This document shows, piece by piece, positions 3,589 to 52,065 of a DNA stretch of 64,000 bases. The stretch covers positions 2,861,463 through 2,925,462 of the forward strand of contig JAJEKV010000037.1 of assembly GCA_021234155.1 (NCBI GenBank), read 5' to 3'. Position 1 is the first letter of the stretch. The number at the start of each line of letters is the position of its first letter. Under the pieces are notes generated by a model. The model saw only the letters and a list, made by a program, of their open reading frames with translations. It made no database searches and was not told the DNA's origin. This DNA is from Isoetes taiwanensis. Lineage: Eukaryota > Streptophyta > Lycopodiopsida > Isoetales > Isoetaceae. The position numbers and the translations under genes were made by a program.

Positions 3589-4159
3589 AGGGGCTTGGAC
3601 AAACATAAGGCATAAAAATCACTCCCAAATCCCACAAATGGAAAAGTCGAAACAGATGCCGCTCGCTAACCTGTACCTGCACATCACCAACAAAACAACA
3701 AGACAAAACAAACCTCCCAGAGTGGAGGGGCTGATTACGCGCGTGCCACGCGATAAAAATACAATAACAAAGAAGGGGGGGGAGGGTGGGTTCAAAGAGA
3801 ATAAGGTACTGCTGAGAGAGAAGAGGAAGCGCCGATGAGACGTTGATGCAAAACCGCGCCTAAAATAGCGAACTCCCAACCAGAATGGGCATGCGCCGCC
3901 CGCATGCATGTATCCCATTCTAGAATGGCGATCCGATATCTCGGATCGATGAGATTATATTGATATTTTAACATGTATGTCTACAAGGCAAGCTACAGAG
4001 GCATGGATCCTTTCCTTAGATATAGCCTTTGGAAAGACCAGGTTTATTAACCCTCTAGTTCAAAAGTGCATCCATGTGCCATACGATGATATAAAGATTC
4101 TAGGGTATGAGCTAATTCAACCACTTATGGACCAACATGTAATCTTTTGACTAGTATAA
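3589..4159. other. Non-coding spacer
   Basis: Nothing recognised. Overlapping minus-strand frames at 3619-3974 are serine/leucine-rich translations of a purine-rich stretch and have no domain character. Confidence 0.4.
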
Positions 4160-4976
4160 TAAGTATTAATAAGATTACTGCAAAGGTTTAAATGTTATTA
4201 GCTATACTAGTGGTGTTCTCAAATTGGCAATCTAAAGCAACACCCACTTTCTAAAGCAAGAATCACTGAAATATTAACTTAAATATAATCCTCATCCTCC
4301 CTTTCCTTCATTCCCTTTTCACGTGAATCCCCATTTCTCCTCATCCCCCCATTCTAAATTGCAATTCCCCCATTAGGCCCTCATTACCCTTATTAATCTT
4401 ATCCCCCATTCTAAATTGCAATTCCCCATTGTAAATTGCAATCCTCCATTGCTCTCTCATTACCCCTACTAACCCTGGCTACCCCATTTCACGTCGTCCC
4501 CCATTCTTCATTTTTTTAGTAGAAATCCTCATATTCTAAATTGCAATCCTCCTATTACTCCTTCATTACCTCCAGTAGCCCTGACTACCCCATTTCTCCG
4601 CATCCCCCATTCTTCATCTCTTACAGAAAATCCCCACGTTCTAAATTGCAATCCCCCATTACTCCCTCATTACCCCTACTAACCCTAACTACCCCGTTTC
4701 TCCTCATCCCCCATTCTTCATTTTTTTTTAAGGAATCCCCATGTTTTAAATTGCAATCCCCTTGTTACTCCCATCATTACCCCTAGTACCCCTAACTACC
4801 CCATTTCTCCTCATCCTCCATTCTTCATTTTTTATAGAAAATCCCCATGTTATAGATTGCAATCCCCCTATTACTCCCTCAGTACCCCTAAGATAGCACT
4901 AAAATCCTCTTCTCCTCAAAAAATTATCCTTTGCTCGTCAATCCCCCATTTCCAAAAGGGGGTATTTTAAGGAGGA
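4160..4976. repeat. Duplicated repeat copy 1 with 105-bp minisatellite
   Basis: About 0.8 kb that recurs in direct orientation at 18706-19529 with very high similarity. It begins near TAAGTATTAATAAG and ends near CCAAAAGGGGGTATTTTAAGG. Inside is a C/T-rich minisatellite: the anchor TTGCAATC occurs at 4436, 4541, 4646, 4751 and 4857, a period of 105-106 bp. Because 105 is a multiple of three, an 81-codon frame runs through it; I regard that frame as an artefact of the repeat. The surrounding unique sequence differs between the copies, so this is a dispersed repeat rather than a local duplication. Confidence 0.85.
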
Positions 4977-6599
4977 CGTGGGCATCATTTTTGATGTGAT
5001 AGAGTCTTTCATATTATATGAAGACTCGATGTAAATATCTATTGCTCCTTATGGAACTTAAAGTGTGTATAATACAGCTATAAATAGTGAAGCATAATAC
5101 ACATGTTCATAATTTGAACATTTATCAAAAAAGACGTGAAATACCCCATTTATCATATTTGAGCTGTTGCGTGGCGTTCCTCATAATAAGATGCAGGTTT
5201 GTCTTATCCCCTTTTGTGACCGAGTGTCCAATATTACCCGGAGTATCCAGACGCTCCTTAGTAATACTTTCAGATAGTTCATCCTTTACTGTAAAAGGTA
5301 ATGATGTAACCCTGGGAGGAGCATTGATCTTGATGTTGGAGCTATTAGATTTCGTTGGATTTCCTCATCCTTGAACCCTTATTACTGCATGTGCTAATTG
5401 TCACAGAGTTACCTTTGAGAAACTTCATGGATTTAATATAGTCTTCTCATATATATCATAAGACCTTTTGGATACTCCAAATTTAGATGGGCCATGGGAT
5501 TTTCTACTAATTTCAATGTCATACCAATAAGAATTCTCCTAACTTCCAGATATGCTACAAAGGCAACCACACCATCCTTTAGTGTGGTTTTAAGATAGTT
5601 TTTTAAAGCCACCATCTGTCCAGCCGCAGACTCTTGCCCCTTTTTTTTTAATCAATGGCTAAGATTGTTTGCCCTAATTTTGATGCCCATATATGCCCAT
5701 ATATGCCCCCATGCTACAAGGGCAACATCATAGCCGTGGACCAAGTAATTTAATGGTTATAATCAATATTACATATAAAGGGACATTATATCACGAGAGG
5801 CATTATATACCTAATATATAACTGTAACACAAGGCCTCCAAAAATTAACTATTATCAGTTTTTCGCAGTAGTTTGTACATGAAACCACTATAATAAAATG
5901 ATATTACTTTGTGGGTTAATATGTTGAATAAGCATGAATAGTTACATAATGTGGTTCTTGCATATGATTTATTATTCTAGTTTGTTATCACATTTCATCA
6001 TCATGGTTTTTATCATGGTTTACTAAATATGTTCTTCCTAATGCTTTATTGCTATGTTTTAAGCATGTGATCCTTTAGTAATGTAGGACAAAACCAGTAA
6101 TGATTTATGTGTGTGAAACTTAGTGGTTGACTAACAAAGCTATCTAGATCATTTTATTTGAAAGAGTGTTGTTCCATGCAATAAAATATCTTATTTTCAT
6201 TCAAATATGTAGGATAAACTATTTATGGTTTTTTTGTTAAGATAGTGAATGTTTGCATCTTATAGTGTGTTTACAATGGTATTTTGGACAATTTAGTTGG
6301 TATTGGTTTATCGAACAAAATGAGACAAACTCTACTAGATTTGGCATTTAAAGAACATGAATTATCAGCAATTGTCATAACTTTTTCTATTTATAAGTGT
6401 TAATGGTTTCTCAATCATATTCTTATGTTTTTATTCTGTAATCTATAATGTTTTATACAAGAAATCAAGAAAAGTTATTGAATGTACCATTGTTGTTTTA
6501 AAAAGCAAGCTGATAAGTTGTACACAAAACCACTAGCACTTTGATGCAATTTTTATGTTAGAAACATCAAACTTTCGGTCAAACCAATATATGTCTTTA
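4977..6599. other. AT-rich non-coding DNA
   Basis: No coding signal recognised. The motif AAACCACTA recurs loosely between 5880 and 6540 and again near 11060, hinting at an old repeat family, but I could not define boundaries. Confidence 0.4.
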
Positions 6600-8460
6600 T
6601 CATAAAATAACCAAGGTTGGTTTGTGCAAGATTCTGTATCAGACAGACCCTAGGATTTGAACCTAGTTATTTCCATTTCGCCCTCATCCAACTAAATTTT
6701 ATGAAAAGATTCATTTTTGTAGAAAGAGCAGTGTACCCAATGACCAGTGTACCACCAACACCTGCTTCGAGAGGAAAAATTCCTGCAAAAAAGATAACCT
6801 TAACAGAGAACTGCAATAGTACAAGATCTTGAGCAAACTGAATTGTCATATGCTTCTGGCCTTGGAAGGGTCCCATGGTTTTTCTAAAACAGGTTTCACA
6901 AGATTAACAAGAACAGAGCAGAGAACTGCCAACTTTCACTTACTTTCCTCTAATATACGACTAAAATTCATAGTATACAGAGGCAGATGACAATGCACAG
7001 TATATTATTATATTATTTATGTCCATAGACATTGAGACTTTCGTAACAACTGCATTCAATATCACACAACAATGATTTACATGTCATATAAAGAAAAAAG
7101 AAGTAAATTACTCTGCCATGCAAGAAAGTAAACCATTACAGAATCTGAATTCATGAACATACAGAGAACATCATCATCAAATGGAATATATGAAATGGAA
7201 TATAAACGAGAAGGTTGGTATAAAGGTTATACCTTGTTGAACATGTTGTAGGTACTTTGTATGTAGGACTCTCAAAGCTGCAAGCAAATTTAATCTAAAC
7301 AATCCAGCGCAATGCTTAGTTCCTGCTGAGACAGTACCTAAGAGATGCTGATAATAACATAGGAATCATGATTCTTATCACATTCAAATAGAGGTCTTGG
7401 ATTCTGATCCACAATCATGGAACTCCCCATGTCCTTTTACTGGTAAACAAACATCCGAGCCCATTCATGAAAAGCAAAGGGCAAAAATAAAATTCAACAC
7501 AACAAGATAAAAGTACCTCAGTCTTGGATTTGAAAGTAAGGAGTATTTGGAGATGCTGTAGTGGCTATCAAAAATGTCACTCGGAAGCATACTTACAAGG
7601 ACCATAAAAGCAAGACTAGGACCAACTGAATAAAAAAGAAACGAACCTTGACAATGCTTAGCTATGCCGTGCAAACCTGGTAATTCCTTTCCCAGCACTC
7701 ATGCCCTCTGGGAAACTTGTCGACCTCCATGCATGTGACATGAAATTACAAGTTAATATAACATTAAATAATCTACCTTCAAGATGCTGGTCTGCAAATA
7801 GCCACCACGATTTGCTCTGTCATTATTTCCTTCTCCCCATCGCATCCTTATAACATGTAAAAGAATGAGCAACCATGTTCTGTTAATCCCTGGCTCCTGC
7901 TAGAATTCTGAATGCGGCACTAGTGTTGCCATCTCTCGAAATACATGATCAATAAAGCAAAATTATAGTCCTCAGCCCTCATTGACTGAACGATGCTACA
8001 CCGTGAAGACATTGTAAGCCATTTATTGTAACAAATCTGATATTGACCATTCTTCAAACTGCAGCTCAGATAAACAGTGATAATGGAGGATACAAAAAAT
8101 GAACGAGGCAATGCTAATAGGTCACAATATGGAAGAACAAATCAAACAAAAAATGACAGCAAGAGACTAGTGGAGCATTTAGATGACATCAGATTATATG
8201 GATGCAATCCGCAAATAACATCTGATAAACCAGGAGATATTTGAAACAACAAAACGAGGGAAGAATCAAGACAAGACTTACGTTTTTGATAGATATGCCA
8301 TGGGCTCTTCTGTCACCACGAACACTTCATGTAATTGCTTTGTCGCCGCCCTGTAAGATCTGCCGCCATGGTTACGTCGCAGTAGCTTTAGATAGGGTTT
8401 CAGAATTTAGGGTTGCCTTACCTTGCGCCGAAACTTTACATTTGAAGCATTTGCCTCTGA
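6600..8460 (-). other. Possible degraded gene or exon fragments
   Basis: The minus strand has some exon-like features: a good donor (AAAAC|GTAAGTC) at 8281-8282 after an open stretch containing ATGGCATATCTATC, and a polypyrimidine acceptor (TTTTTTGCAG) near 6777 before an open stretch. I could not connect these into a phase-consistent model and recognise no domain. It may be a decayed gene or chance. Confidence 0.2.
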
Positions 8461-8665
8461 AATGATACGAAGGTTTTAAAGTTTTATGATGTAAAGAAAA
8501 TGCCATTTGAGGTTATCGCCTCCACTCCACTAAATCCAAAGTTTCCAACATAGAACCTAAGATGGGAGATGCAAATTCTAGTGCATGATCATCGTTTAGT
8601 GTCTTCCTCATCCTCAGCATCTACAAAATAATAGTCCGCACCATGATAATGCGTGTGTCATAACC

Positions 8666-8803
8666 AGTTGACATAAACATGCACCAAATTATCTTAATTG
8701 ATTTTCTAGTTTTAGAATAACTCTGACGATGCAGTTGACATACACATGCACCAAATTATCGTAACTAGTTTTCCAGTTCTAGAATAACTTTGACGATGCA
8801 TCC
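8666..8803. repeat. Tandem duplication, 67-bp unit x2
   Basis: The block beginning AGTTGACATA and continuing through ACATGCACCAAATTATC to TCTGACGATGC occurs at 8666 and again at 8733 with a few substitutions. Confidence 0.8.
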
Positions 8804-8900
8804 AATGAATGTGGGCCAAATTGCTAAAGGATATGTATTGTGCCGATGCTTAAATCAATTCCTTGGTTTTTGGCAATTCAATATCAATATTATAAAATAA

Positions 8901-9105
8901 AGGGAAAATTACCAAAATGTCCCTACAATTTGGCTTTTTTTCCAAAATACCCCTAATGTTTCTAGAATTACCAAATTATCCTCAGTCAATATAAATATAC
9001 AAGGGAAAATTACTAAAATGCCCCTACAATTTGGTTTTTTTCTCAAAATACCTCTAATGTTTCTAGAATTACCAAAATGTCCTCGGTCAACATAAATACA
9101 ATATA
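8901..9105. repeat. Tandem duplication, about 101-bp unit x2
   Basis: AGGGAAAATTACCAAAATG, then CCCTACAATTTGG and CTAATGTTTCTAGAATTACC, occurs at 8901 and again at 9002 with minor changes. The minus-strand frames here are products of the repeat. Confidence 0.8.
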
Positions 9106-9670
9106 TTGATATACTACACATCTTCAAACTTTTGTATTTACCAAAAACCCCCTGAGTCTTGCACCAAAAATGACAGCGGAGTGAGACAAGTCCGATGAAG
9201 CAAACGTCTCCAAAATTTTGCACGACAGCTGGGGCCCCTTGTGCTCATGCTGCTAGAGCCATTCTTCATAAGAAGGAAAAGGTGCAATCTTACACATATA
9301 GGGGATATTCTCTTCAGGCTTATTGTGATACTTATGCAGAAGTAATTGCACCTGCGCTGCTTCATCGAAGGAGAACCTACTTGTAGAAGGTGATATATTG
9401 CCTCTTGCAACTTCTCGTCTCCCCGGACATCTTTCAAAGCGTCAAATTTGTTCTAATCACGAGGATGGAGATGGTTGAGTTTTAATTATAATATCGTTCA
9501 CTTCATGAATATTTTTGACAAGATTATGTGCTCCCACCGGTCCATGTGATGATGGATACGGCTTCAATAGGGTTACTATAACAATATCTCCAAGAAATGA
9601 TGGATATGTGCACTCAGTTATGTCATCTGATACTCCCTTGAGATGTATCACTATACAGTTTATCTGCATG

Positions 9671-9737
9671 CTTATTACTACTAAGGTTTTTCCCTCGAAA
9701 ACCCTCGGGGCAGAGGTTTATTAATCCTGACAGTAAT
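9671..9737 (+). repeat. Hairpin motif, copy 3 (LINE 3'-UTR-like)
   Basis: It contains GGTTTTTCCCTCGAAAACCC, CGGGGCAGAGGTTTATTAATCC and a short outer pairing of ATTACT with AGTAAT. This matches the core of the hairpin at 28885-28955 read on its minus strand. It is in the plus orientation here. No adjoining LINE coding sequence is visible, so it is probably a truncated LINE 3' end. Confidence 0.5.
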
Positions 9738-11157
9738 CCTTTGTTGTGCTCTTAATGTGGGTTTCATAGGCCTACTGGTCTTCATGGACAATAAAAACCC
9801 ACTTAATTCAATTTGATACAAAACTACTAGTCTCAATTGTATATACTTGCAATGCATTCTCTTTATAGATGAAACGAGATGGGATGATTCTAGCCTACTT
9901 TGATAGCTGTCAACTATAGTTTCCCACGACAATGAGAATATTGCAAAACGGAGCATCCAATAAAGAAATTTCTTCGAGATGGCTCTTAGATCCATTTTTG
10001 TCACACATGGGAGTCATGTTTGCACCTCATTTGGCACCTTTAGTCTACAAACCAAACAATACATCAAACTGAAGAAAATTTGATATAGTAATCATAAAGC
10101 TGGTGGTCTAGCATTGGAATATTTGATCTTATTATAATACAATTATAATACTTCAAACCATTATTCAGTCTATGTTTGAAGTAATTGCCCCTTTGCAAAT
10201 TCTAAAAATATACAAGAAGATTTTTTCATGAATAATTCATATCCTCAAATTTTTAACATATTGGATCGGGGTTCAAAAAATATTTGTGGTATAACCAGAA
10301 AATTTGCCCGTGTATGTTAGTGTACATCGGATTTCCTATATATTAAAGCTAAAAAATATTGAATTTTACATATAAACTCTATTTTTGCTACTAGTTTTTT
10401 TGCTGACATGCTCCTAACCCCCACTTTTTCGATCCCAGTTTGGACCCCTACTTTTTCGATCCCAGTTTGGAATACTCCTTAGACTCGCCAAAAACTCCAG
10501 CTTAGTTAATTTAATCTTACCTAGCTTGTGGAATTTGTGTAAATGAACTTCCATATATCCATTTATCGCCTCTTTTGGTAGAAATGGCTATCCTCAATTT
10601 CAAAGTTATAAGTTATATATATGTGATGATTCCTACTTTATGAGGATGCCTATATATCACAATATTTGATGAAGTAACATCTTGAAAGAATAATTTGAAA
10701 TGGGAAGAGAAGCATTAATATGTAAGCTAGCTCCTACACATAAACTGTCGGGGCCGAAAATCACTGACACTCACAAATGGCTGAATATAGGTGCAATAGC
10801 CTTGAGGTGTTATGGGACTCCATTTTTTTCATTTTCATTCCACCAAAACTATACTTACACTTATTATTCTAACAAGCACTATGTAGTCATATTTTTTACC
10901 TTCAAATTACAAAGTCTTAACGTGCCATTACTAGTTTTAATGAACCAATATTGTATGCGTGAAATTCCTCATAAACCACAATAGTTTAAACAAACCGCTA
11001 CAACATTGATAACCAGTGTTAATAATCATGGTACAAACTACTACCAATTTTGAGAAACCACTATGGCATGTGGTTTTCTTAGATCAAATAAATTCATGCA
11101 TAAAAACCATATATCTCGTGGTTTTTCGGTGATCTGGTATTGGTTAAATATAGTAGT
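9738..11157. other. Non-coding DNA
   Basis: Nothing recognised. A small direct repeat (CTTTTTCGATCCCAGTTTGGA, two copies) lies near 10425-10475. The last 150 bases have short inverted repeats around AACCACTATGGCATGTGGTT. Confidence 0.4.
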
Positions 11158-11955
11158 TCATTTTTGGGCTCCTTGTGTAATATGGAGAGTGTCTTTCCCG
11201 ATGGAAAAATGAGTAACCAGGTGCAGATCCCGTTCCTCAACCAGCAGATAATCCACCACACTGGAGCCGCCCCCTTGGTTCTCCTGTCTACAAGTGCAGC
11301 AGCTGGAAGACGACCATTGTGCCAACCCATTACAAATAACCAGGTCAAAGATACTACCCAGCAACAACAACTGCCTGCCATAGCGCGAAATATGGTTGTC
11401 GTCTGATATCCTTGACCAAGCTACCTCTGCGGGGTTCAACTGCAAGACGTCCTCTGCCAGGGGCTCAAATTTTGGAACCTGCTCGGCTCCTGTGCGTGCA
11501 TTAAAGTCGCCAAGCAACATAACCATACCCAACTGTTTGTGCTGCTGTATGTCATCATATAGATCGACATAGGGCTCTAATCGATCCACATCCGAATGAG
11601 TGTTATAAAAGTTGCTCTCGGCATGTGGAAAGTAGCATGCTGCTATGAGAAGACTGTCGCCACTGTCATACTGCACTCGCATCCACAAGTAGCGATTGTA
11701 CACATGCGTTTTTTGTGCAACGAGGCCGAAAAGTGCCTCAAGGTTGCCGCGGTAGTAGCAGGCAACCCCGCCATGCCCTCGCTTGCACATTGCACTCATT
11801 GAACACCGAAATGCGGATAGCTGGAAGGTCCGGGTGGTCAGTGCCCACGCATGCTCCCATGTTTTCATGAGGAAAATGAGATCCATATCTGGTGCAATAG
11901 CATTGAGACTCTTGCCTTTCTGCCAGGGAAAGCCTCGACAGTTCCAAGACACCAT
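11158..11955 (-). pseudogene. LINE A endonuclease/exonuclease/phosphatase domain
   Basis: An open frame of 265 codons with the apurinic-like endonuclease signatures: SWNCRG at the start (residues 3-8), LGDFNARTG near residue 148 (catalytic Asp and Asn), and SVVDYLL near residue 228. In non-LTR retrotransposons this domain nicks target DNA to prime reverse transcription. The final family motif, a SDHxP-like block carrying the catalytic His, is missing: the frame ends in unrelated sequence just after SVVDYLLVEERD. The stretch is uninterrupted but cannot be a working enzyme. The expected continuation into reverse transcriptase is absent. Confidence 0.85.
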
Positions 11956-12835
11956 CCGGAGGCACAGTTCCTATTTGTTGGCATTCGATGTGGGCCTTCG
12001 ATGATCTGCCCGGTTGCGGGGGGGCTTGATGTCGCGGCGTCGAGCAAACAAAGCGCGGCGGGAGCGGGAGAGTGCGGTAGAATTGGCGATGCGATAGCGC
12101 CCCGAGGAGTTGCAGCGGCTGCGCATTGCCTCGGCGACCTCAACAAAGGCCGGAAAATCTGGCTTTGCCCGGACAAGGCAAGGCCCCCTCTACGACGGGC
12201 GTCCGACGCCTGGGCAGGCTGGCGCCCGGTGGGACCCCCCAGACGGGGGTGAGATCCTGGTCGACATACTCTGAGCAGTCCCTTCGGTTGCCTACTCGGC
12301 GCTAGGGATGGCCTCACGTACTCGCGATATGCGCCCGCATCGTGAAGGTGACAACGCGCGGACGATCTGTGCGTTGAGTCCCAAGGCGGCTTGCTCTAGC
12401 AATGTGTACCGTAGTTGGGAATGACATTCGAGATAGGATCTCATCCTGGATGCGCTTGGTGAGATCTTCTCCTCCGAGAGTCCACGCACCACCACATTAT
12501 GGCGTCGGCGGCTCTGCTCCTGCTGCTTACTGAGTCGAGGGGCAACATTAGATGTCCCAACAGGTGACGCATGTTGGCTGGAGTGTGTGGGCTACTCACA
12601 GTGAGGGCGGTGTGGTGTGCGAGATGGAGGAGATGGTGTCTGTCAGCCTGTTTGGCGACCTGTGGGCTGTGGGGCACGTGCGCTTGGCTGTCCCTGTGTT
12701 GCGGTCTCTGCTGCCTGGAGCCGGGAGCCTAGCTCCTGTTGGAATCTCTGCTGCTTGGCCAACTCATTTGTGCAGTGCCGCAGGTGTTCATGGACCTCAG
12801 CATGGAGGCCGCTGCCCTAGAAGCTATATGGCATA
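11158..12835 (-). mobile_element. LINE A: 5' half (ORF1 + endonuclease)
   Basis: A locally GC-rich block read on the minus strand. The upstream part (about 12830 down to 12630) encodes a coiled-coil-like, Gln/Glu-rich segment (HCTNELAKQQRFQQELGSRL), typical of a LINE ORF1. The downstream part encodes an endonuclease domain, listed separately. The order ORF1 then endonuclease is that of a non-LTR retrotransposon. No reverse transcriptase follows, so the element keeps its 5' half and has lost its 3' half, the reverse of usual LINE 5' truncation. The frame is broken several times between the two parts, so it is inactive. Confidence 0.75.
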
Positions 12836-13952
12836 ACAAATAAAAGTTATTAAAGGTTCACACCCTATATATGGTCTAAACGTTTATTTTAAGAAAAAAT
12901 ACTTCCTATGTTTGAAAATACGATATTTGATTAAATATTTGATGATAGATGTTGCAATGGTGGCAACAAAAATAAATAATGCTAAACATAAACCTCTTGG
13001 GCCCATTTATACTGAAAATTTTGACATCATTGGGCTTCAAAATTTGAAAATTTATTGTACTTCTAATATAGACGAATGGGGTTAGGGTTTCGGTATTTCG
13101 ATATTCTATTTTCACATAAGGCAAAAAAATGGCCGGATTTGCTGCGGGCGGAGCTCTGCACTGCTATAAAGCCATATTTGATATAAGGCAGAAGCGTACA
13201 CTGCGGAATAGGCAAAGCTCATACATGGAAGATGATGGAACTGCTTGTTGAAACTGTTAAGGATGATCCTCTGCATTGCTAAATCTGCAAAGGAATGCAT
13301 TGCTAAATCTGCAAAGGAATGAATGTGCCGGATGTACACAGTCTCTAAAAGAACCCTGTCGCTGGGCAATCAACTAGGGTCTGATATGCTACTGGTAATA
13401 TTTTCGTTGCATTTTGTCCAGATTTTTGCTCAAACTTGATAGTTCGTAAAAACCATAGAAGTTAAAACAGAGTTCTTAGTCTGATGCAGAGCTAATATGG
13501 CCGAAATGATATTTCAAGAACACTTGATATCTAAGCCATGGAAGTTGGGGAAATCGAACATGGAGCAATGCAAATGATTCACGGATAAAAGGAGCGAAAA
13601 GTATCAGGTTTTGTCTGTTAGAATCGATATTCTTTGTGCATATATGTTTTGATATTTCTGAGTAAATGCATATGGATTGTGGATGGTTACATACAAAAAA
13701 TAAGGCATTGCTTTAATTCTTTCTGATATGCACGTTGATTATAGTCTGCTGCTAGGTAGATGTGCATGCAGGGTCATCCTTGATAGTTTGTGCATGCTTG
13801 GTTAGAGTAACATCTTCATTATTCAAGGAGTGCCAGGGACATCCATTGTTGGTAATCTTTGTGCATCTGCAATTTGTTAACCATTTTGTGGATACTATCA
13901 AAAAAAGTACTCAGCCAGCTAGAGTACAAATGCTAGCAGTATCAGAAATGTT
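12836..13952. other. Non-coding DNA upstream of a candidate gene
   Basis: It holds a TATA-like CTATAAA at 13164-13170 in a locally GC-rich context, which could be the promoter of the six-exon model at 13953, and a 26-bp tandem duplication (TGCATTGCTAAATCTGCAAAGGAA unit, about 13270-13321). No other gene seen. Confidence 0.35.
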
Positions 13953-16900
13953 ATGGCTACTAATATTCCTGAACTTGTTGAAGACTCTCAACTAGAAGTG
14001 GACGAAGATACTGACCCAGGGGTCCCTCTCAATCAGGTTTCCTAACATCTGCAGAATATCTTGTATTCTGGTTTAATTCATATTCTTACTCTTACTGTAA
14101 TTTTAAGTGAAGGGTGATAAACTGCATAAAATGTTTGGACCATTTTGTTTCTTTGGTTCTCTATGTTCTTTGTTAAACATGCATTTTTTATTTCTCTAGA
14201 ATCTCTTATTTATACCAGATAAAAGTATGGATGTTAAGCTCTCCGGCATCCTAAGATCAGAGTATGCCACTTTCCTCATTCTGCACTTTATTTGTTCCCT
14301 TACTGTTATGAGTTAATTCTCAGTGATTTTCTATATTCAAGGAGTCTTGCACCACTGCACTGGAGAAGTATGGGGTTGGAGTCTGTGGCCCTCGTAATTT
14401 TTATGGAATTATTGGTAAGGCTTTCATTATAGAGTTATAACATTTTATTATGAATCATTAGGACGTTAATACACAGAAGAGATCCAGCCTAGAAGGCAAT
14501 ACCACTTTTGCAGAGGACATAGACAGAAACAAAACTCAGCTGTGTTCTATGGCCCATTAGACTGTAACGAAGACAATAGCAATAACTGGACATGTTGTAA
14601 CCTTTCAGTTAGGCAGAGTAAAAGGAATGAGAAGTTATGCATAAAGTGCAATTCATGCCCGCAAAGGTGCAGTTTTAACCTTTTTCAGAAAAGTTGTTCC
14701 TTATTTGATGAAATAAGGATATAGATTGATTTTCTAAGGTTTTGAAAGTTTTGGCCGTCGGAAAAAAGTCCTGGCACTCCAAAAATCGGGAAATATTTTG
14801 GGCTTTGGGTTTTTGCAGATAGAAATGCCTAAAATGGGCAGTGCCAGATTCAGCATGCACACCACGATTGCTCAGATCATGCAGGGTTTCCATAGTATTC
14901 CGGCCAAATAGTTGCATTTACATGCACTGCAGAAGATGATTCATGCACTGGATAAATGAGTTCGGGATTCTGGGAACATTTTAGCAAAAGGGCTCCTTCC
15001 TCGGATGGAGCTTATCCTTTGTGCATGGAGCTTATGGATTTGGGCCGCTTGAGCCTTGCTACTTACTGTTCTGAGCAGATTTTCTGTTTGTGATTGCAGA
15101 GATTGTAGCTAGGGATATATGGGCAAGATCTGGATTCATCCTGCTCCTAGATGCTGAAGATATTGATGTATACTTGCACCGTCAATTCATGTCATTTCCT
15201 TAACTTACATCATTTTTATTATTCTATACTTCACAGATTATGCATCCAAAATCTAGATCTTTATTCCAGTATTCTTGATTGAGGCTTTTTTCTTTGCAAC
15301 GCTCTAAGTTGCAGTGTCATTTAAATAGGGTTGGTCTTTCTTACAAAAAATTGACTTGCAACTATGATGCAGTGGCAAAGAATGAGCCTGTTTTGCATTT
15401 CCTTAAAGAGTCAAAAGGAATTTGCAAGAATCATCACAAATAGGATGGAGATTAGTGCAACACTCCATTTCTCTCCCTTTAAACGTGAGAGATCTAAGGT
15501 GATAGAAATTCCTTAGACTATAGAAACATTTTGCAAGCATTGAATGTTCTTATATTATGATTTCTTCTTGAGCATCAATTACGGTTATTGTATTGGACGA
15601 TGAAATAAATTTCTCGATTGTTGTTTCAGGATGATGTCTCTAAAAAAGCATTATTCACGACCCATCATTTATCTGATGGAGATATATCTGATGGAGGTAA
15701 TATGTTTTCCTGTGTCCTAAGGAGTATTATCATGTAGCTTTGGTTGGCTTTATCTACAACTCTCTAGATCAAGAAGGAAAAGCTTTGATCTATTCTGGGC
15801 TAGCATAGGTTGCTTCTGTTATAGGTACCAGACTATCTAGGTAAGTAAATAGTTTAGCTCCGGTGGAATAAGAAAGCCCCATTTTAAAGTGGATTAATAG
15901 ATGCCAGCCAAATTGCTTCCAAATTGCTTCCAGTGAAATAACAAAACCCATGTTAAAGTGGATTAATGGATGCCGGCTTCATACAATATGATGGAACCTC
16001 GACACAAGTAATTAATCCTAGGTAAGTAAGAAGACACAAGTCTCAAGACCTTGCAAATGAAGATCTGTAGCTGAGCAGTCCATAGAAACGACAGTCTTTA
16101 GAAGTCCATAGAAGTGGTCGTACAGTACATTGGCTCCATGTTTATCCCATGGTTTATTCTTAAAAGTTGATTTTTTGTTGTGCCGCTTCTGCAATAGAGT
16201 ATAATACCCTGCCTTAGAGAGAAAGGAGCTCTATGTATCTACTCAAATTAGGAAAATGCTCAAACATGAATCTATTCGACATGCTTCGAAAGAGTCCTTT
16301 TGTTATGGGTTCCGAAAGCTACACATGGAATTCTTAATGAGATCTTAATTGAGGTCTGTGCATTGGAATTTGATTCTCTATCACAACATGCCCATTTGTT
16401 AATGTGACCAAGTTTGCGCCCAAGATATGTAAAAGCAAATATTTTTAGCAGATCAAAAAGTGAGTCCTTTGTTCACTCCAAGACATAGGTACAGATTCTC
16501 ATCACGGATGCCGGTAACTCCCAGCCATAAGAAATGCAAAGTTATGTTATGTACCGTTCGCATTTCTAAACATTGTGGTTGTGATATGTTCAACAACAGA
16601 CGTTGAACTGAACTGCACGATCATAATATGAGCATAGCCAGCATTTTATTTTTTGCAGATGCTATAGAACACAAGGAATCAGAGGTGGACATAGCAGAGG
16701 TATAGAGAGCACAAGGAATTAGTCTATGGTCTCAGATGACAAAAATGATTAAAGAGACCTTGGAAGCTGAAGGTCTCGGGGATTTGATTGAAGCTTGGGC
16801 ATTTTTGATCTACAGACAGCAGACACTTCACAAACCTGTTGCAAGCTAACAGCTTCAAAGCAAATGGCAATTCTTGTACTTTCTTTGCTTTGCTTTGCTT

Positions 16901-17142
16901 TGTCTGGAAAGCATAGAAGTGCATCCTTATTAGGCTTTGAATCCACTGCAAAACAGAAGGGAAAACGAGTTTAAGCTTGCATATGGCCATCATAATTTCC
17001 AACCATGTTAGCACCAGACCATTGAAGTTATGCTCCTGTAGCTAGAGCAACCAGCATCTAGATAACTAATGTCAACAACCTCAATCCGTCTCATTTTGTT
17101 TTACAGGAGTTCTGGTACTACCCTCTTGACCATGTATTTTAG
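13953..17142 (+). CDS. Candidate six-exon gene, about 122 aa, one LCB1-like exon
   Basis: I propose exons 13953-14036, 14342-14414, 15100-15167, 15630-15696, 16659-16699 and 17107-17142. All introns are GT-AG (donors CAG|GTTTCC, TTG|GTAAGG, GAT|GTATAC, GAG|GTAATA, GAG|GTATAG; acceptors end TTCAAG, TTGCAG, TTTCAG, TTGCAG, TTACAG). The reading phase agrees across all five junctions, from ATG ([13 protein letters not shown]) to a TAG after YYPLDHVF. Exon 2 reads [17 protein letters not shown], closely resembling the [17 protein letters not shown] block of LCB1, a subunit of serine palmitoyltransferase, the first enzyme of sphingolipid synthesis. Its flanking exons do not resemble LCB1, so the enzyme itself is not encoded. 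Exons 3-5 are acidic and unrecognised. It may be a mosaic of captured exons, a short new gene, or an over-interpreted chance alignment of splice sites. The start is simply the first ATG in frame. Confidence 0.45.
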
Positions 17143-18676
17143 GCCAATCATGTATACAAAAAGCTGGCATTCAAGTCAAATTTGCTTAACCAAGCGCCTC
17201 TTTATTTTTTAGATATTCATGCCAACTGTTTTCTACAGCAAACAATTCATGCAGGCTTCATGAAACTGGAATGATTATTCTCAATATGAGAGACGAATGC
17301 ACAAATTCAGTCATTTTCAAGTTGTATAAATCCAGAAGATATAGCAGAGGACAACATGAAAGCTAGAGGTAAATTGTCATCGTACAACTCTTATGGCTAT
17401 TTAAATGGCAGTTTTACCATTATAATAGGCCACAAACAATGATGCAAACTTGAATATGCGTCTTTGTAATTACCAAGGCTAGCACAATGTTGTTCAATCC
17501 ACATACGACACAAGTACAATATGCTTATTAAACACAGAGAATCGAAAGCTACCTCTAGCTTTTTATTTGCTACAAAGAAGTCTTGCTGAATCGTGTCAAT
17601 CCCCTCAAGGAGTGAATGTACCAAATATAATGTTTGAATCTTAAGAAACACACACAATGTTTGATACTACTTTCATTTGCATGTACTAAACTATACGATA
17701 GTTTCAAAGGGCATTATTGACAATATGCTTAAAAACTCAATAAACCCCAAGGGGACATATAAGGGTTGCCATCACCATGGTACATGCCAAATTGACAACG
17801 CCAAAAAGTCCTCGGTTGTATCAAAGAAATCCAACGTCGGTTGTATCAAAGAAATGCAATTACTAACTTTTACTTTTGAGAAATGCTAAGTGTGTGTAAC
17901 AATCAAACACTTATGAGCTTATTGCCTCTATTGTCTCTTGACAATCACTCTCCCTAATGCTCAACCCTAACCATTGCAACTTTACTTTTAAGATCAAGCA
18001 CATTTTAGAACTTTTAATTTGGCCTAGGAACATGCAGAGTAATTATGATTAAGCAAATTTAATGCTACTACCCACTACCCAAACGCAATTAGATGAATAT
18101 ATATCTCCAATTTCCTATATATTTGCCACTCCACAATTAACAATATTGTCACAAATGCTTCTTTTAGTGATGGCCCATGTGGTTCCTATCTCATATGTCA
18201 AATATATAATTGCAGTAATTAGAGCTGCACACCTTAGCAATGGAGGGTCCATGTGGTTTTGTATGATCGAGTGCTCAAGTCTTAAAATGTTGCTATGGCT
18301 CCTTATCATATAGGTTCTCCAAATTGCATAGTCTTGCAAATCTTATGGTTAGCCCATAACGAAACAATCACATAACAAACTCCAATAGTTAGGTACCACT
18401 AGAAGATATATTTTATATAATACTATGCATAACAACTACTATTTTTAGAAAAACAAAATGGAGCTCATCACACTATATATGGAGAATAAGAGTTTTATAT
18501 TTTATAACTGTGACAGCTTATATTTGAGACAAATTACACTTCCCCTTGATAAGAATAGATGCTTCATCTTCATGCTAAAGCCAAAGTGCTCATTATATCA
18601 CCATATATTCGACACAACTTGCACTTTCTCTCCAAAACCATTTTAGTTACAAAACGCTTTTCAGGTTGGTGCTAAA
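17143..18676. other. Non-coding DNA before a Helitron terminus
   Basis: No coding signal recognised. The sequence may be the body of the Helitron whose 3' end is at 18705, but I found no matching 5' end beginning with TC after A. A short duplication (GGTTGTATCAAAGAAAT, two copies) is at about 17813-17855. Confidence 0.3.
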
Positions 18677-18705
18677 GCCCGGCAACGCCGGGCATCCATA
18701 ACTAG
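18677..18705 (+). mobile_element. Helitron 3' terminus
   Basis: A stem-loop GCCCGGC-AAC-GCCGGGC (18677-18693) is followed 8 bases later by the terminal CTAG (18702-18705), then a T at 18706. This is the classic plant Helitron 3' end: a GC-rich hairpin about 10 nt before CTRR, inserted before T. Two similar termini occur at 20178-20205 (minus) and 28743-28771. The 5' end was not located. Confidence 0.75.
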
Positions 18706-19529
18706 TAAGTATTAATAAGATTATTGCAAAGGTTTAAATGTTATTAGTTATATTAGTGGTGTTCTCAAATTGGCAATCTAAAGCAACACCCACTTTCTAA
18801 AGCAAGAATCACTGAAATATTAACTTAAATATAATCCTCATCCTCCCTTTCCTTCATTCCCTTTTCACGTGAATCCCCATTTCTCCTCATCCCCATTCTC
18901 CTCATCCCCCCATTCTAAATTGCAATTCCCCCATTAGGCCCTCATTACCCTTACTAATCTTACCCCCCATTCTAAATTGCAATTCCCCATTGTAAATTGC
19001 AATCCTCCATTGCTCTCTCATTACCCCTACTAACCCTGGCTACCCCATTTCTCGTCGTCCCCCATTCTTCATTTTTTTAGTAGAAATCCTCATATTCTAA
19101 ATTGCAATCCTCTTATTACTCCTCCATTACCCCCAGTAGCCCTGACTACCCCATTTTTCCGCATCTCCCATTCTTCATCTCTTACAGAAAATCCCTACGT
19201 TCTAAATTGCAACCCCCCATTACTCCCTCGTTACCCCTACTAACCCTTTCTACCCCTTTTCTCCTCATCCCCCATTCTTCATTTTTTTTTAAGGAATCCC
19301 CATGTTCTAAATTGCAATCCCCTTATTACTCCATCATTACCCCTAGTACCCCTGACTACCCCATTTCTCCTCATCCTCTATTCTTCATTTTTTATAGAAA
19401 ATCCCCATGTTATAGATTGCAATCCCCTTATTACTCCCTCAGTACCCCTAACATAGAACTAAAATCCTCTTCTCCTCAAAAAATTATTTCCTCGTCAATC
19501 CCCATTTCCAAAAGGGGGTATTTTAAGGT
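18706..19529. repeat. Duplicated repeat copy 2 with 105-bp minisatellite
   Basis: Near-identical to 4160-4976, in direct orientation. The TTGCAATC anchor (one unit has TTGCAACC) falls at 18997, 19102, 19207, 19312 and 19417, exactly 105 bp apart. Its left edge coincides with the Helitron CTAG end at 18705, so the Helitron appears to have inserted at or beside the start of the repeat. After GGGGGTATTTTAAGG the copies differ by a 16-bp indel, then share TTTTGATGTG before diverging. The 146-codon frame running through it reflects the repeat period. Confidence 0.85.
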
Positions 19530-19988
19530 TTTTGATGTGTAACCTTGAGGATGTCATTGGGTTAGTTACTCCGGTTACTAGAGGAGAGCTTGAAGTGCCC
19601 CTCGTCTAAAGTCTGGCCTTAAATTTCTTAGCAAATCAAATGCATAGCCCACGAAGAGCAGGATCATGGGTAGAGTGTGCTTTTGCGTTTATAAAATCTA
19701 TCTGGCAGCTTCTTGGGATGCCAGATAGATGGCGCGAGCTTTAGTGCTTTCCACTACGTTCATTTTAATAATCAAAATCGCAACACAAAGCGACGAAGCT
19801 GGATTTCACCAATCAGCCACAATCTGCATCTGCAACACAGTCAGAGGAATCCCGTTTGACAGATTATACAGAGAGGGGCGATCGAAGGTGTTGCTACCGT
19901 TCGGGTCCCTGTGGCGTTTGGCCTCAAACTATTTGCGCTTGTGAATACGATAGACTATGCTGCTGGAATTGGTTTGCGATTACATTAG
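19530..19988. other. Non-coding spacer
   Basis: Nothing recognised. An inverted pair, TCTATCTGGCAGCTTCTTGGGATGCCAGATAGA in outline (about 19698-19731), forms a small hairpin. Confidence 0.35.
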
Positions 19989-20177: not shown

Positions 20178-22028
20178 CTAGTAATGGTGCCCAGCGTTGC
20201 TGGGCAAATGTTGGGAACATTTGTGGATGGAAACCTATTCAGCTCAGACTCATTAACCAAGTCCATCATATCTAGGCTATAAGAGGTTTTTGTGCATTTG
20301 ATAACCTTCCCTTTGCTCTATCCTGCATATCCTTTTTTCCTCATTTTCTTACACACTTTCTTTTTTCCCTTTTCTTATTTTTCCTGCACATTTACTTTTC
20401 TCCTTCTCTCTCTTTTTTTTTTTCTTTTCTTTTTTACCCTCTTCTCCCTCCTCTTTTCCTTCTTTTTCTCCTTTTCATTTTTCCCTTTCCCTTTCCCTTT
20501 TTTGACGGCTTTTTTCCTTCACTTTTCACCTTTCTCCACCCTTCCCATTTTTCTCATGCTCTTTTTTCCCTTTCCTTTTCCCATTCCTTTTGCTTTTCTC
20601 TTTTCCCTTCCCTTTTCTCATGCCCTTTTTGCATTCCCTTTTCCCCACCTTTTTTTTTTTATGTTTTTCTTCCTCTCCTCACCCTCTTCTTCTTTATCTC
20701 ATGTCCCTTTTTTCCCATTTTCTTCTTCCTTTTTTCCTTTCCTTCCCCCCTTTCCGCCTCCCTTTTTCTTTTTCCCTTTCCTTCTTTTTTCATCATTTCC
20801 CCACCCTTTCCCTTTTTCCCGTGCCCTTTTCCTCTTTCCTTCCCCCCTTCCTTTTATCTTTCCCTTTCCCTTTCCTTTTTTCTTTTCCCTTTTTCCCATG
20901 TATTTTTCCATTCCCTTTTTTCCACTTTTTTTTACTTGCCTTTTCTTCCGCCTTTCCCTACCCTCTTACCCTTTTCCCCGTCCCTATTCCCCTTTTTTTC
21001 TTTTTTTTTCCCCTTTCCCTATGCTCTTTTTCCCTTTATTTTTACCCTTTCCTCACCCTTTCCCTCTTCTAGTTTTTTCTGTGCCCTTTTTCCCTTCCTC
21101 TTTTCCATTTTCCCTCCTTATTCCTCGTGTTCTTTTTTCTTTCCCCTTTCCCCTTTCGCCTCCCATTTCCTTTTTCCTTTTCCTTCTTTTTTTCATCCTT
21201 TTCTCTTTTTCCATGCCCTTTTCCTCTTTCCTTTCCACCCTTTTTTTTTCCTTCTCTCTTTTCCTTTCCATTTTCCCACACCTTTTTCCATTCCATTTTT
21301 TCCACCTTTTTCACATGCCCTTTTTCCTCCTTTTCCCACCCTCTTCCCCTTTTCGCTTTTCCTCTTTTCCTATCCCATGTTTTCTGTTCTCTTTTTTGCT
21401 TTTTGCTTTTCCCTTTTCCCTTTTCTCTTTTTCCCTTTCTTTTTTTCGTTTCCTCACCCTTTTCCTCTTCTCGTGCCACTTTCTCCTTCCTCTCTCATTT
21501 CCCTCTCCCTTTTCCTCATGCCCTTTTCCCTTTTTTGCCTCCTTTTTCCTTCTTCCTTCCCTTTCTATTTTTCCATGCCCTTTTTTCCTTCTCTCCATCA
21601 TTCTTATCTTCCCCTTTTTCCCTTCCGTCACCGTTTTCGTCTTCACCTTTTTCCCGTTGCCCTATTTTTCTTCCTTTTCCTCCCTTCCCCTTTTCTTTTC
21701 CCTTATTCTGTCCTCACCCTTTCCCCCTTTTCCTTTTCATAGTGTCCTTTTTTCCTTCCTTTTTCTCCATTTCTTTTTCTTTCCCTTTTTCGTGCTCTTT
21801 TCCCTTTCCTTTTCCCTTCTCCGTCTTTCCCTTTTACCCGTGCCTTTTGCCTCTCACTTTGCCCTTTTCTCTACCATTTTCCCTTTCCTCTTAAGAGATC
21901 AGAGCATCGCCAATCACGGTGGTGGGAAGTTGTGCGATAAATGTCGGCCTTCGAATGCAATCAGACGATCTCAACTATCTAAATTAGGGTTTGATTGAAG
22001 ACATACACTAAAACTTTATAATATAAGA
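20178..22028 (-). mobile_element. Complete non-autonomous Helitron
   Basis: The 3' end on the minus strand is a stem-loop GCCCAGC-AAC-GCTGGGC (20189-20205), then CACCATTA and terminal CTAG (20178-20181). The 5' end on the minus strand begins TCTTATATTATAAAG at 22028, the TC-start and AT-rich pattern of plant Helitrons. The flanks are A at 20177 and T at 22029, as expected for AT-targeted Helitron insertion without duplication. There is no Rep/helicase coding sequence, so it is non-autonomous. Almost the whole interior is a homopyrimidine tract (homopurine on the element's own strand). Confidence 0.75.
20305..21892. repeat. 1.6-kb homopyrimidine (C/T) tract
   Basis: Almost pure C+T on the plus strand, built from variants of CCCTTTT and TTTCCC with only scattered purines, often as ATG or GCC. 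The long frames here (up to 568 codons of Phe/Ser/Pro/Leu, and Lys/Arg/Glu/Gly frames on the other strand) are consequences of composition, not genes. Such tracts can form triplex (H-DNA) under supercoiling, and this one is long for a plant. It lies inside the Helitron 20178-22028. Confidence 0.95.
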
Positions 22029-22543: not shown

Positions 22544-24823
22544 TTAATTTCCAGAATGACGAGCTACAAACTTTTCAATGAGCTCATTCACTAAGTTAGG
22601 GACCTCATCCTGAGAATTTGCAAACCAGTCAAGGATTAATACATAAGAAGACTTCAAAACATTGAAATTGATTTGCAATGAGACCTGTGGACAGTGCCCA
22701 GCATTTGGGATCACAATAAATTCTTCTACTGCAGTGAAATTTGCCAAGCTACTTCCTAAAGCCAATGGCTCCCAAGGATCCTTCTCTCCCCAGAGAATAG
22801 ATACTGGACACTGGTTAAATCACAGAAGGCAGTGATTGAGTATAACGTAACAACAGCATGAACATGTTGTAGACACAGATGCTTACCTGTACTTCAGAAA
22901 GCATCTCTTCAGGGAGAGGGCCACCTGAATAGGATATAAAGTCCAAAAAGACATCTGCAGCACCTTGTTGCAGGCCGGGGAGCAATATCTTCTCGATTAA
23001 TTCATCGGTCACAGCAGCCTCATCATAATAACACTGTGAAAGAAAAGCAGACATCAATATAAGCCAACATCAGGCGAGACTCATCAGTGTTGTAAGCACA
23101 CCACATACAACATGAAAAGAAAGGTAATGAAGAAACTTAAGGATACACTACACCTGACGCAGAATATTTCTGACAGCATTTTGTGAGGCCACAGATTGAA
23201 AGAATATGCGTCCAATCTCCGTATTCCTGAAGCCATGAATATGTTGCTAGAACCAGGTTTGAAATACTGACAATTAAAACCTTCCTATGCAAATTTGCTT
23301 ACTAAGGATGTTAAAAGAGAACATGGCCACACAAAATATGCTGTTATAAGTGCATTTGCCGGTAGAAGGTTCATATGCAAATTTCTAATTGAGAACGTTA
23401 AATGTATAGGATGTGCAACTCTGACAAACTGTTTATTTCGAAACAGAAAGGACTTAATAATGCTTCACGCCATATGCTCCAAATCTCACCCACCTTAGCA
23501 GACTTTGCAGACTTTTAACGAATGGTTGTATATACCATGCTTGTTTCTTGATATGTAACAAACGTAAGGAGACATTTAGAAGTTGAACACCTTGTACTAG
23601 TTGAGGGGTAGTCAATGCTGCTTGAAGACCAACTATTCCTGCACGAAATCATTAGATCATTGCTAAAACATAACATCTAATATGTGTTCCTATTAAATAA
23701 AGCAGTTTAATCTGAAGATAAGTGAGAAACTCATCAGCAAAATCCAAACTACTTAGACTCCATTACATTTTCAAGTTTGCAAACAAATTCTTCCTTGTTG
23801 GAAGGGGACGTTCACATTAAGGGCAACCTGGACTCCCCCAGGTTAGTAATAAAAAGCTTCTTGGCTACATGCGCCCAACAGTATCAACATTAAACAAAGA
23901 CTACACGTAACATGCATTTACCCATTACTGCACAAGTGGTACTTCCAGTGTTGATCTAGCATTCAACGAGCAATGTGCTAACGGACCAAGGACCATTTAA
24001 GAATCTGCCGCTTTAAGCCAAACCAAATAAAAACAGATTTTGTGCATGTACAGGTTCAAAAAAGGAAGACCAATTTTTGCAATTTTTAAGATCTAGTAAA
24101 TCTACTTTTTAATGCATCTCCCAAAAACGAAGCAATTCTCAGGTGCATTAGCTTCTTGGTATCAAGGAGGAGTACCTCCAATTGAATTGCATATTAGGAA
24201 AGCACGATCCCTTATGATGTCTGTGCAAAAGTCCAACACTTGCTTTGCCCAGGTATCAAAGTTATATAATGAATTGGGAGGCAGGTTCCTCGGACTTGGT
24301 TTATCTGAGAACCCGTAGCCTAAAAGGTCGATTGCATAAACTCTATTTGACTGTGCCAGTACAGCTAAATTTTTGCGCCAATGATCACTAAAGAGAAAAG
24401 ACATTGGTGACTCCCCATTTTTAGAATAACAAGCTCAAAGCCATTATAACTACCTGTTGGCGCCAAACCCATGAATTAGAACAAGCGCAGGCCCGCTGCC
24501 TCCTGCAGTTTGATACCTAATATTGTAGCCGTTCCATTTCCAGAAGCTGTTTTTGAAGATCAGAGAATAAGAAATTTATGTGCTTCACAACCATTACATA
24601 AAAACATTCATAGTCAGTATAGAACACAGATGATACCGTAAATCGTAACACTTAACTGTTCCGATGTTGCAACTTGGGTGCAGGCCTCTTCAATTTGAGA
24701 CGCCCTTATAGCAGCCCATCTACTATTAACTAAAAATAAGCAAGGTGGTCTCAACTTAATGCTGTGCAGCTCACAAGAAGGCTTAACAAACGAGACATGC
24801 TGCCGGAATGAAGCAGTCGCCAT
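22544..24823 (-). CDS. Alpha/beta hydrolase, chlorophyll dephytylase (CLD1)-like
   Basis: Exons in transcript order: 24823-24637, 24546-24454, 24387-24176, 23638-23494, 23226-23154, 23033-22887, 22810-22685 and 22609-22544; all introns are GT-AG. Visible landmarks are a transit-like N-terminus (MATASFRQHV..., basic and Ser-rich), WKWNGYNIRYQTAGGSGPA, oxyanion-hole HGFGANSDHW, nucleophile block CNSIGG (split by an intron), ILWGEKDPWEP with the acid Asp, and NAGHCPQDE with the catalytic His, ending ARHSGN. This layout and YSGGPLPEE match the plant plastid hydrolase group of CLD1 and At4g36530, roughly 350-380 aa. CLD1 removes phytol from chlorophyll in thylakoids; sharing that substrate is inference. 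Phases agree from exon 2 to the stop, but exon 1 to 2 is off by one base as I place it, so a micro-exon, another start or a frameshift is possible. MATAS was chosen as start because it begins a transit-like stretch; the frame is open upstream to 25018. Confidence 0.88.
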
Positions 24824-25040
24824 TAATCCTTTACACTTTGAAGAGGCATTCCTAAGGTTACATTGCACAAGAGCGACATGGTACGTGGCTCTACCGGTAC
24901 CAGTTGACTGAAATATTGCGAAATGCTCGCTAATGTGGCCATTGGATAAATAAAAGGCTGTTTTCATTTCAACCCTCCATTGAGTAATGATGATCACCCT
25001 GGGATTCCACACCACCAAGTTTTATTTTGCAATTATACAA
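24824..25040. promoter_or_regulatory. Upstream/5' region of the hydrolase gene
   Basis: Presumed 5' leader and proximal promoter of the minus-strand hydrolase gene, bounded by a dispersed repeat starting at 25041. No TATA box or motif was confidently placed. Confidence 0.35.
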
Positions 25041-25931: not shown

Positions 25932-26626
25932 CTCAAGCCTCTAATATCTTTGAAATGATATTAGCAGTAGACATTTAAGTTACAGTTCTATATTTTTTAT
26001 GTAGGAAGAAAAAGCTTCTCTTCAAGAAGACCATATCTTACCTTGAGATGCCCAGAGCTGGAGGACAGTTGATATATGCAAGCATATTTTCTCTTTGAAA
26101 CAGGTCCTTACTGGCCTTAGTAATTCTGTTCACACCATATCCAGCGTACAATTACAATAAATATGGTAAGAGAGATTCTATAGAGGACATGTCTGACACG
26201 CACATATCTTGCACTTTGAGATATCTTACATTTTAATGCATATGTACATATCCCTTCTCTCTGCTCTGAATCACAGATGCTTGCATTCATGATCTGGGGC
26301 ATTTTAATCCAACTCCTTTCACAGACAACCTATTTCTTACTGGCAATTTTAAGATCACTCGTCCATGGTTTGCAGGCAGTCCTTTGTTATTCATTTAGGT
26401 AAATAATCTCTTTCATTAAAATCTAAAACTGAATTATCTTAACGGTTTTTTTAACAGGTGACCAGATTTGCCTTGTCGTAGAATCAGCATAGGCTTTGTC
26501 TCTAAATGGTAGATGGACCGTCCATTTGGCACTTTATTCAATCATGGGCAGAGGCTACAAGGGTATAACTCTGTCCACCTATCCTCTTGTTACATATTGC
26601 TACCCTAGATCATAATCTACCTACAA
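25932..26626. repeat. Direct duplication, copy A
   Basis: About 695 bp repeated in direct orientation at 27446-28279. Shared blocks include CTCAAGCCTCTAAT, GGAAGAAAAAGCTTCTCTTC, GTCTGACACGCACATATCTT, CCATGGTTTGCAG and ACTCTGTCCACCTATC. No open frame is conserved between the copies, so it is a repeat or segmental duplication rather than a gene. Confidence 0.85.
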
Positions 26627-27445: not shown

Positions 27446-28279
27446 CTCAAGCCTCTAATTTCTTCGAAATGATATTAGCAGTAGACATCTGAGTTACATT
27501 TTTGTATTTTTTATGTAGGAAGAAAAAGCTTCTCTTCAAGAAGACCATATCTTACCTCGAGATGCTTGTAGCTTGTTGGAGGACAGTTGATAGATGCAGC
27601 ATATTTTCTCTTTGAAATAGGTCCTTATTGGCCTTAGTAATTCTGTTCATACCATATCCAATGCACAATTACAATAAATATGGTAAGAGAGACTCTATAG
27701 AGGACATTTGATTTTCTTTGCTTTTAAGGCTTTATGCACTCATGATATGAAAATTCAAACATTGTTTGTAGATATATACGAAATCCAGTTAGAGTGACTC
27801 TAATCCAATATCACAATAGGGGATCTGACACTTTGGCATGTCACATGTCTGACACGCACATATCTTGCACTTTGAGATATCTTACATTTTAATGCATATG
27901 TACATATCCCTTCTCTCTGCTCTGCATCATAGATCCTTGCATTCATGATCTGGCTGGGGCATATTAATCCAAATCCTGTCACATACAACCTATTTCTTGC
28001 TGGCAATTTTAAGATTACTCGTCCATGGTTTGCAGACAATCCTTTGTTATTCATTCAGGTAAATAATCTCTTTCAATAAAATCTAAAACTGAATTATCTT
28101 AACGATCTTTTCTTCCAGATTTGCCTTGTCATGGAATCAGCATAGGCTTTGCCACTAAATGGTAGAGGGACCGTCCATTTGGCATTTTGTTCAATCATGG
28201 GCAGAGGCTACAAGTGTATAACTCTGTCCACCTATCTTCTTGTCTCATATTGCTACCCTAGATCAGAATCTACCTACAA
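27446..28279. repeat. Direct duplication, copy B
   Basis: Second copy of 25932-26626. It carries about 130 extra bases (around 27705-27845) just before the shared GTCTGACACG block, so either an insertion here or a deletion in copy A. Confidence 0.85.
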
Positions 28280-28742
28280 AATTTTGGCATTATGCTTGCC
28301 GTAAATTTATTAATGCTAGCAAGAACATTTTATATTGATTGAGTGAATGACCCTTGCATCCAACTCTGAAAAGTTTGCAAGTAGTTTGCCAATGCTACCT
28401 TTGCCACATTCCGAACCTAAGTTTCACATACATGAATCACAACTAGAAGTCACATTTACTCAAATTATGTTATCACAAATCTTTACAAATATACATTATA
28501 CCAATCGATGTTCCTTCTCCCATTTTTCTTCAAGTTTACCAAGCAAATATCTGCGGCTTTATAGATGCCCACAGCCGACAATGCTCCCGCTTTGTCAATG
28601 GCCCTTGCGATACCATACACATTGACATTCACATATAAAATCAATATTCAAACACCCGTAAACATCAACTTCACTACTCAACACAACCACAACAATTGCA
28701 GTCTGATCCACAAATTGATAAATATGACAAATAGTTTCTAAA
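28280..28742. other. Non-coding DNA before a Helitron terminus
   Basis: AT-rich; a 92-codon open frame has no recognisable domain. It may be part of the Helitron that ends at 28771. Confidence 0.3.
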
Positions 28743-28771
28743 GCCCGACAACATCGGGCATCTATTACTAG
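28743..28771 (+). mobile_element. Helitron 3' terminus
   Basis: Stem-loop GCCCGA-CAACA-TCGGGC (28743-28759), then ATCTATTA and CTAG (28768-28771), followed by T. It has the same architecture as the ends at 18705 and 20178 and a related hairpin sequence. The 5' end was not found. Confidence 0.72.
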
Positions 28772-28955: not shown

Positions 28956-29006
28956 AATGTTGTCAAACTGTACATGTCAAGCGCGTGCCCGAGGACATAG
29001 CTAATC

Positions 29007-52040: not shown

Positions 52041-52065
52041 NNNNNNNNNNNNNNNNNNNNNNNNN
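52041..52065. other. Assembly gap (25 N)
   Basis: Unresolved bases. The 60 bases on each side resemble each other (CATGTTTC, AAGCATTA, CAATCTCTTAA, GTGAATCA in both), so the gap lies in a tandem or collapsed repeat, or is a join of two overlapping ends. Confidence 0.98.

Follow-up and report, generated by a model that had tools for sequence, protein, structure and literature searches.

A single exon of LCB1, serine palmitoyltransferase subunit 1, was found at 14342-14414 on the forward strand of the window, the 64-kb stretch of DNA that was analysed as a whole. The LCB1 homology of this exon is accompanied by a Helitron 3′ end further downstream and by an open six-exon chain running through it, and no LCB1 neighbour rose above shuffled sequence anywhere in the window. 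On balance, we favour an origin in which a DNA transposon, probably a Helitron, made a copy of a short genomic stretch of LCB1, which then drifted. Captured gene scraps of this kind are already known, and the exon is most likely one further example, which at best would yield chimeric transcripts.

The LCB1 exon and the nearby Helitron ends

The exon, numbered 2 in the six-exon model discussed below, matched Arabidopsis LCB1 (7yjm_A) with an E-value of 6.6e-9 in a phmmer search of PDB. With tblastn, 20 of 24 residues were identical to Arabidopsis LCB1 (83%, 47.8 bits, E 2.68e-8), and its assignment to LCB1 in the first-pass annotation is therefore well supported. When the three forward-strand frames of 13000-18704 were compared with PDB up to E 1, four LCB1/SPT1 sequences were the only matches and all fell into one frame, in which exon 2 reached E 1.7e-5 with phmmer; the other two frames returned no match at this threshold. 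The tblastn match begins at the first codon past the AG and ends one base short of the donor GT, and the raw-frame phmmer match is one residue longer at each side. The copy has thus retained the exon plus its borders. The exon ends in phase 1.

With regards to drift, the core of exon 2 differs from the Arabidopsis sequence KYGVGSCGPRGFYGT at 3 of 15 residues. Over the same 15 residues, the SPT1 of 7yiu, which we take to be the human protein, differs from Arabidopsis at 1 position and that of 8c80, presumably from yeast, at 4. Among the three changes in exon 2, only the exchange of G to N hits a residue that is identical in all three solved SPT1 compared. As 8c80 SPT1 departs further from Arabidopsis than exon 2 does, the core changes hint only weakly, if at all, at drift or lost constraint.

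Helitrons are characterized by a 3′ CTRR with a short hairpin just upstream and a T next to it, and by a 5′ TC after a host A (as described in PMC2575219). The Helitron 3′ end at 18675-18705 (+) has this 3′ structure: the hairpin GCCCGGC-AAC-GCCGGGC is followed by CTAG and then T. It is a perfect, G+C-rich hairpin of 7 bp with −9.6 kcal/mol (z −2.77). A sister 3′ end, again a hairpin plus CTAGT, lies at 28741-28771 (+), and together with the structure it upholds the Helitron end that had first been noticed at 18705. A 22-base pattern built from both ends matched just those two places (mean of 0.00 in 100 shuffles), and 0 matches each were obtained in prokaryote and viral contigs. A third, more diverged Helitron-like 3′ end with a hairpin plus CTAGT is located at 20178-20208 on the reverse strand and is outside the 22-base pattern. 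Three Helitron-like 3′ ends, at 18705 (+), 20178 (−), and 28771 (+), are thus found within about 10 kb. Two of five sites with a hairpin and CTAGT (3572 and 35244) were dropped as not being of this type, and the same was done for two of five sites from a further Helitron-end search (12260 and 3880).

The LCB1 exon lies 4.3 kb upstream of the 3′ end at 18705 and in the same orientation, and it is plausible that this Helitron spans the exon. A tentative candidate for the 5′ end is TCCTATATATTAAAGC at 10334-10349 (+). If it is correct, the element would measure 8.4 kb, with a LINE endonuclease-like fragment inside it in addition to the LCB1 exon. A near-copy of TCCTATATATTAAAGC with one mismatch occurs at 53348-53362 on the minus strand, giving 2 occurrences including the site itself compared to 0.02 expected for a pattern picked after seeing the site; at up to three mismatches, 10 matches were counted and 3.57 were expected. 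However, the base preceding the candidate is T and not the expected A, and no start common to the 28771 element and the 18705 region stood out from shuffles, as 15 pairs beginning with TC were found with a best of 19/26, compared to 13-27 pairs with a best of 19-21 in 20 shuffles. Both observations weaken the case for capture by this element. When 5′ ends were compared with the 20178 element, none of the 25 best pairs stood out clearly.

A Rep/helicase gene belongs to autonomous Helitrons only, and non-autonomous elements do without it. Six frames of 10001-19902 contained no Pfam match up to E 1 in a scan that is insensitive, as the long X-bearing six-frame Pfam scans missed the endonuclease match that was seen with a single ORF at E 0.0063. 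This LINE endonuclease-like piece, at 11161-11970 (−), is below the cut-off of Pfam. A LINE reverse transcriptase piece was identified at 33668-34279 (−; E 1.2e-10).

The Helitron end at 18705 also marks the beginning of the second copy of an 820-bp direct repeat on the forward strand (4157-4972 and 18703-19528; 94.5% identity over 831 aligned columns), which mostly consists of 105-bp C-rich tandem units. A reading of the repeats as LTRs was rejected, as their ends show no TG...CA and no target duplication. The left flank of the copy at 4157 was sought upstream of 18705 and reached a score of 26 compared to 23-32 in 10 shuffles, so that the insertion site was not revealed.

Several other features were recorded in the window. 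An alpha/beta hydrolase gene with several exons is represented by pieces at 22547-24970 (−), with an Abhydrolase_1 match at 24165-24434 (E 7.4e-7) and a weaker one, below the cut-off, at 22547-22819. A direct duplication of about 700 bp (25932-26626 and 27446-28279), approximately 90% identical in two pieces, lies in the interval from this gene to the Helitron end at 28771. A pyrimidine-rich stretch (C and T) of approximately 1.5 kb with long open frames on the forward strand covers 20330-21890. A 74-bp inverted pair (9654-9727 and 28899-28972) is 77% complementary around CCCTCG/CGAGGG, and a similar motif was seen by eye near 3530. At 52041-52065, 25 N follow in a row.

The six-exon chain

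The gene model of the first-pass annotation was reproduced exactly: at 13953-17142, six exons and five GT-AG introns keep one frame open from ATG to TAG, with a length of 122 codons plus the stop. All exons are on the forward strand. Exon 1 (13953-14036; 84 nt, 28 codons) ends in the donor CAG/GTTTCC, which ranks 18 of 161 donors. The LCB1-like exon 2 of 73 nt has an acceptor of rank 24 of 228 and a donor of rank 6 of 161. Exon 3 (15100-15167; 68 nt) combines an acceptor of rank 4/228 with the weak donor GAT/GTATAC (rank 54/161), exon 4 (15630-15696; 67 nt) has ranks 5/228 and 3/161, and exon 5 (16659-16699; 41 nt) has ranks 1/228 and 11/161. Exon 6 (17107-17142; 36 nt) follows an acceptor of rank 2/228 and ends with the stop TAG. 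Four of the five acceptors are thus within the best five of 228.

That the consistent phase of the exons is remarkable in itself was not confirmed. With exons of 30-200 nt and introns of 60-1300 nt, approximately 2.07e10 six-exon chains from ATG to stop are possible in the studied stretch, and between 3.3e8 and 2.9e10 were counted in each of 60 dinucleotide shuffles. Because so many chains fit the stretch, phase consistency alone means little. The strength of the splice sites was scored with approximate weights for plants, with no training on this genome. With a fixed background, the chain scored 32.0 bits, and an equally good chain arose in 29 of 1000 shuffles. When the base composition of the stretch itself served as the background, this was the case in 1 of 60 shuffles. 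Among 76 same-length tiles of the window, 3 held an equally good chain (the LINE region, 5861-9090 on the minus strand, and the hydrolase gene). The splice-site strength of the chain modestly exceeds chance. A cluster of strong splice-like sites was observed at 6533-8506 (−), where an open chain outscores the one at 13953-17142; Pfam matches in the scanned pieces of this cluster were no better than E 0.42.

Against this background, we give close to even chances to the chain having arisen by chance around a single relic exon of LCB1, with the rest non-coding. The sheer number of possible chains, at least 3.3e8 in every shuffle, and the 29 of 1000 shuffles of equal score fit such a construction. 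Furthermore, the top-scoring chain (34.5 bits) in the stretch runs through exons 3-6 and omits exon 1 and the LCB1 frame of exon 2, and the proposed start codon at 13953 is covered by an out-of-frame ORF with ATG at 13930 and 13948 and a TAG stop at 13993-13995. In a transcript starting further upstream, this ORF could interfere with translation from 13953. However, the placement of four acceptors among the five best and the block of exons 3-6, which fewer than 1 in 100 shuffles equalled, argue against chance. The likelihoods that we assign to a chance chain and to the capture of exon 2 add up to more than one, since they answer different questions, namely whether the chain is real and where exon 2 came from, and both can be true together.

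Given the donor of exon 2, exons 3-6 form the best tail, and their score was reached in 6 of 1000 shuffles and in 6 of 176 tiles (1 being the block itself, 2 in the hydrolase gene, 1 in the LINE region, and 2 in 5953-9400 on the minus strand). These counts provide weak evidence that some splice sites of the block may be, or may once have been, real. They are also what lends weight to the idea that exons 3-6, and perhaps exon 1, belong to a lineage-specific or unrecognised host gene, with the LCB1 exon lying adjacent or inside by chance or having been shuffled in. The block is the best tail chain as well as part of the best six-exon chain, and two of the six tiles reaching its score overlie the alpha/beta hydrolase gene. 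However, the LINE region and one unassigned stretch score equally high, the donor of exon 3 is weak, and no credible homologue was found in Pfam or PDB, so that we regard such a host gene as unlikely. The last point is tempered by Pfam also missing exon 2.

In the homology searches, neither Pfam nor PDB gave a credible match for exons 1 and 3-6, either singly or joined. Exon 1 had no Pfam match, a longer version of the exon 1 piece had no PDB match, and exon 4 had no Pfam match. As exon 2 was missed by Pfam too, short exons are hard to place, and the silence of Pfam on them is a weak argument. The matches that did appear, each with an E-value above 0.03, were taken as chance: DUF6839 for exon 3 (E 0.068), and designed TIM barrels (E 0.031 and 0.044), a pilin (E 0.36), and an NADH:FMN oxidoreductase-like protein (E 0.69) for exons 3-6. 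A possible likeness of exons 3-4 to ABC transporters was unsupported in Pfam.

Search for longer LCB1 copies, and possible coding roles

Residues 17-477 of Arabidopsis LCB1 were searched against the whole 64-kb window with tblastn, alongside 30 trinucleotide-block shuffles. No second LCB1 piece above shuffled sequence was found in the 64 kb, and a full-length coding sequence was not detected. The next-best match, at 52711-52902, reached 27.7 bits and equals the top of the 30 shuffles (21.2 to 27.7 bits). It contains two in-frame stops, lies 38 kb from exon 2, and corresponds to the part of LCB1 that overlaps and follows that of exon 2. The sensitivity of the search was estimated by a simple, ungapped simulation with uniform substitution, in which a 24-residue LCB1 piece reached 28 bits in 98% of the trials at 79% identity, in 73% at 65%, and in 38% at 55%.

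Based on these detection rates, a full LCB1 pseudogene inside the window that has decayed as far as exon 2 is very unlikely. The first-pass annotation had named a decayed full LCB1 pseudogene around exon 2 as the result that would speak against its reading, and none was found within the 64-kb window; we reject it, save for strongly decayed neighbours, as pieces with an identity of 55% or less are mostly missed. It is also improbable that exon 2 is what decay has left of a complete LCB1 duplicate. The weak match at 52711-52902 falls in a suitable part of LCB1, and neighbours of 24 residues at 55% identity escaped detection in 62% of the simulated trials. However, neighbours as decayed as exon 2 should be detectable, and the match itself is distant, interrupted by stops, and no better than the best shuffle.

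We attach still less probability to a recently formed chimeric gene whose otherwise new small protein would include an internal LCB1 exon brought in by a transposon, or to a transcript with an LCB1 part that gives rise to small RNAs against the parental LCB1. Least probable of all is a newborn chimeric gene for a functional 122-residue protein, for which the frame open over six exons, the strong acceptors, and an ATG with a purine at −3 and G at +4 can be cited, and against which the lack of a Pfam domain and the upstream ORF overlapping the start can be held. Transposon-mediated exon capture or the birth of a new gene had both been considered at the outset; the reading of exon 2 as LCB1 and the Helitron end at 18705 both stand, and the birth of a new gene gained no positive support, with no homologue of the other exons found.

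Probable capture of the exon and known systems

The favoured course of events would begin with a Helitron, or another DNA transposon, copying one internal LCB1 exon, including its splice sites and some adjoining intron sequence. A lone exon flanked by AG and GT, in a window where no further LCB1 segment rises above shuffles, fits a template of genomic DNA and not one of mRNA. The captured piece would later have drifted in surroundings rich in transposons and in Helitrons. Since the acceptor of exon 2 and its good donor are preserved, splicing could include the exon in a transcript crossing the region, and the six-exon chain would be one possible splice product among many paths, probably without a function. 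However, exons 3-6 have splice sites of greater strength than expected (6 of 1000 shuffles), and gene capture by Helitrons is reported to be common in maize and scarce in Arabidopsis and rice (PMC2575219).

For maize, a 2026 review (PMC13317346) gives about 2,791 Helitrons that carry sequences of 376 host genes, and captures are reported to give chimeric, alternatively spliced transcripts (PMC4528327). The same review describes captured fragments as usually non-functional pseudogenes, although numerous ones are expressed. As captured fragments mostly end as such pseudogenes, the case presented here changes little by itself. If transcribed, it would be another natural case of exon shuffling by a DNA transposon, with a clear donor gene. 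Our literature search found no paper joining serine palmitoyltransferase LCB1 with a Helitron, and none for Helitron in combination with TATATTAAAGC.

For better comparison, plant LCB1 itself can be considered first. The 24 residues of exon 2 are 83% identical to the Arabidopsis protein, whereas the remainder of its 482 residues was not detected in the 64-kb window. Pack-MULE and CACTA elements (Tgm-Express) resemble the present case in the outcome of exon-piece capture: short exon pieces are carried along by a DNA transposon and then spliced together (reported in PMC1947982). Unlike in these systems, no convincing terminal inverted repeats were found in 9500-19600 among the 25 longest of 70 pairs (18-30 nt, 70-89%). 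A further close parallel is seen in the non-autonomous, gene-fragment-carrying Helitrons of the maize type. Here, the 5′ end is a candidate only, but as in those elements, a host exon with splice sites lies near a CTAG 3′ end and in the same orientation.
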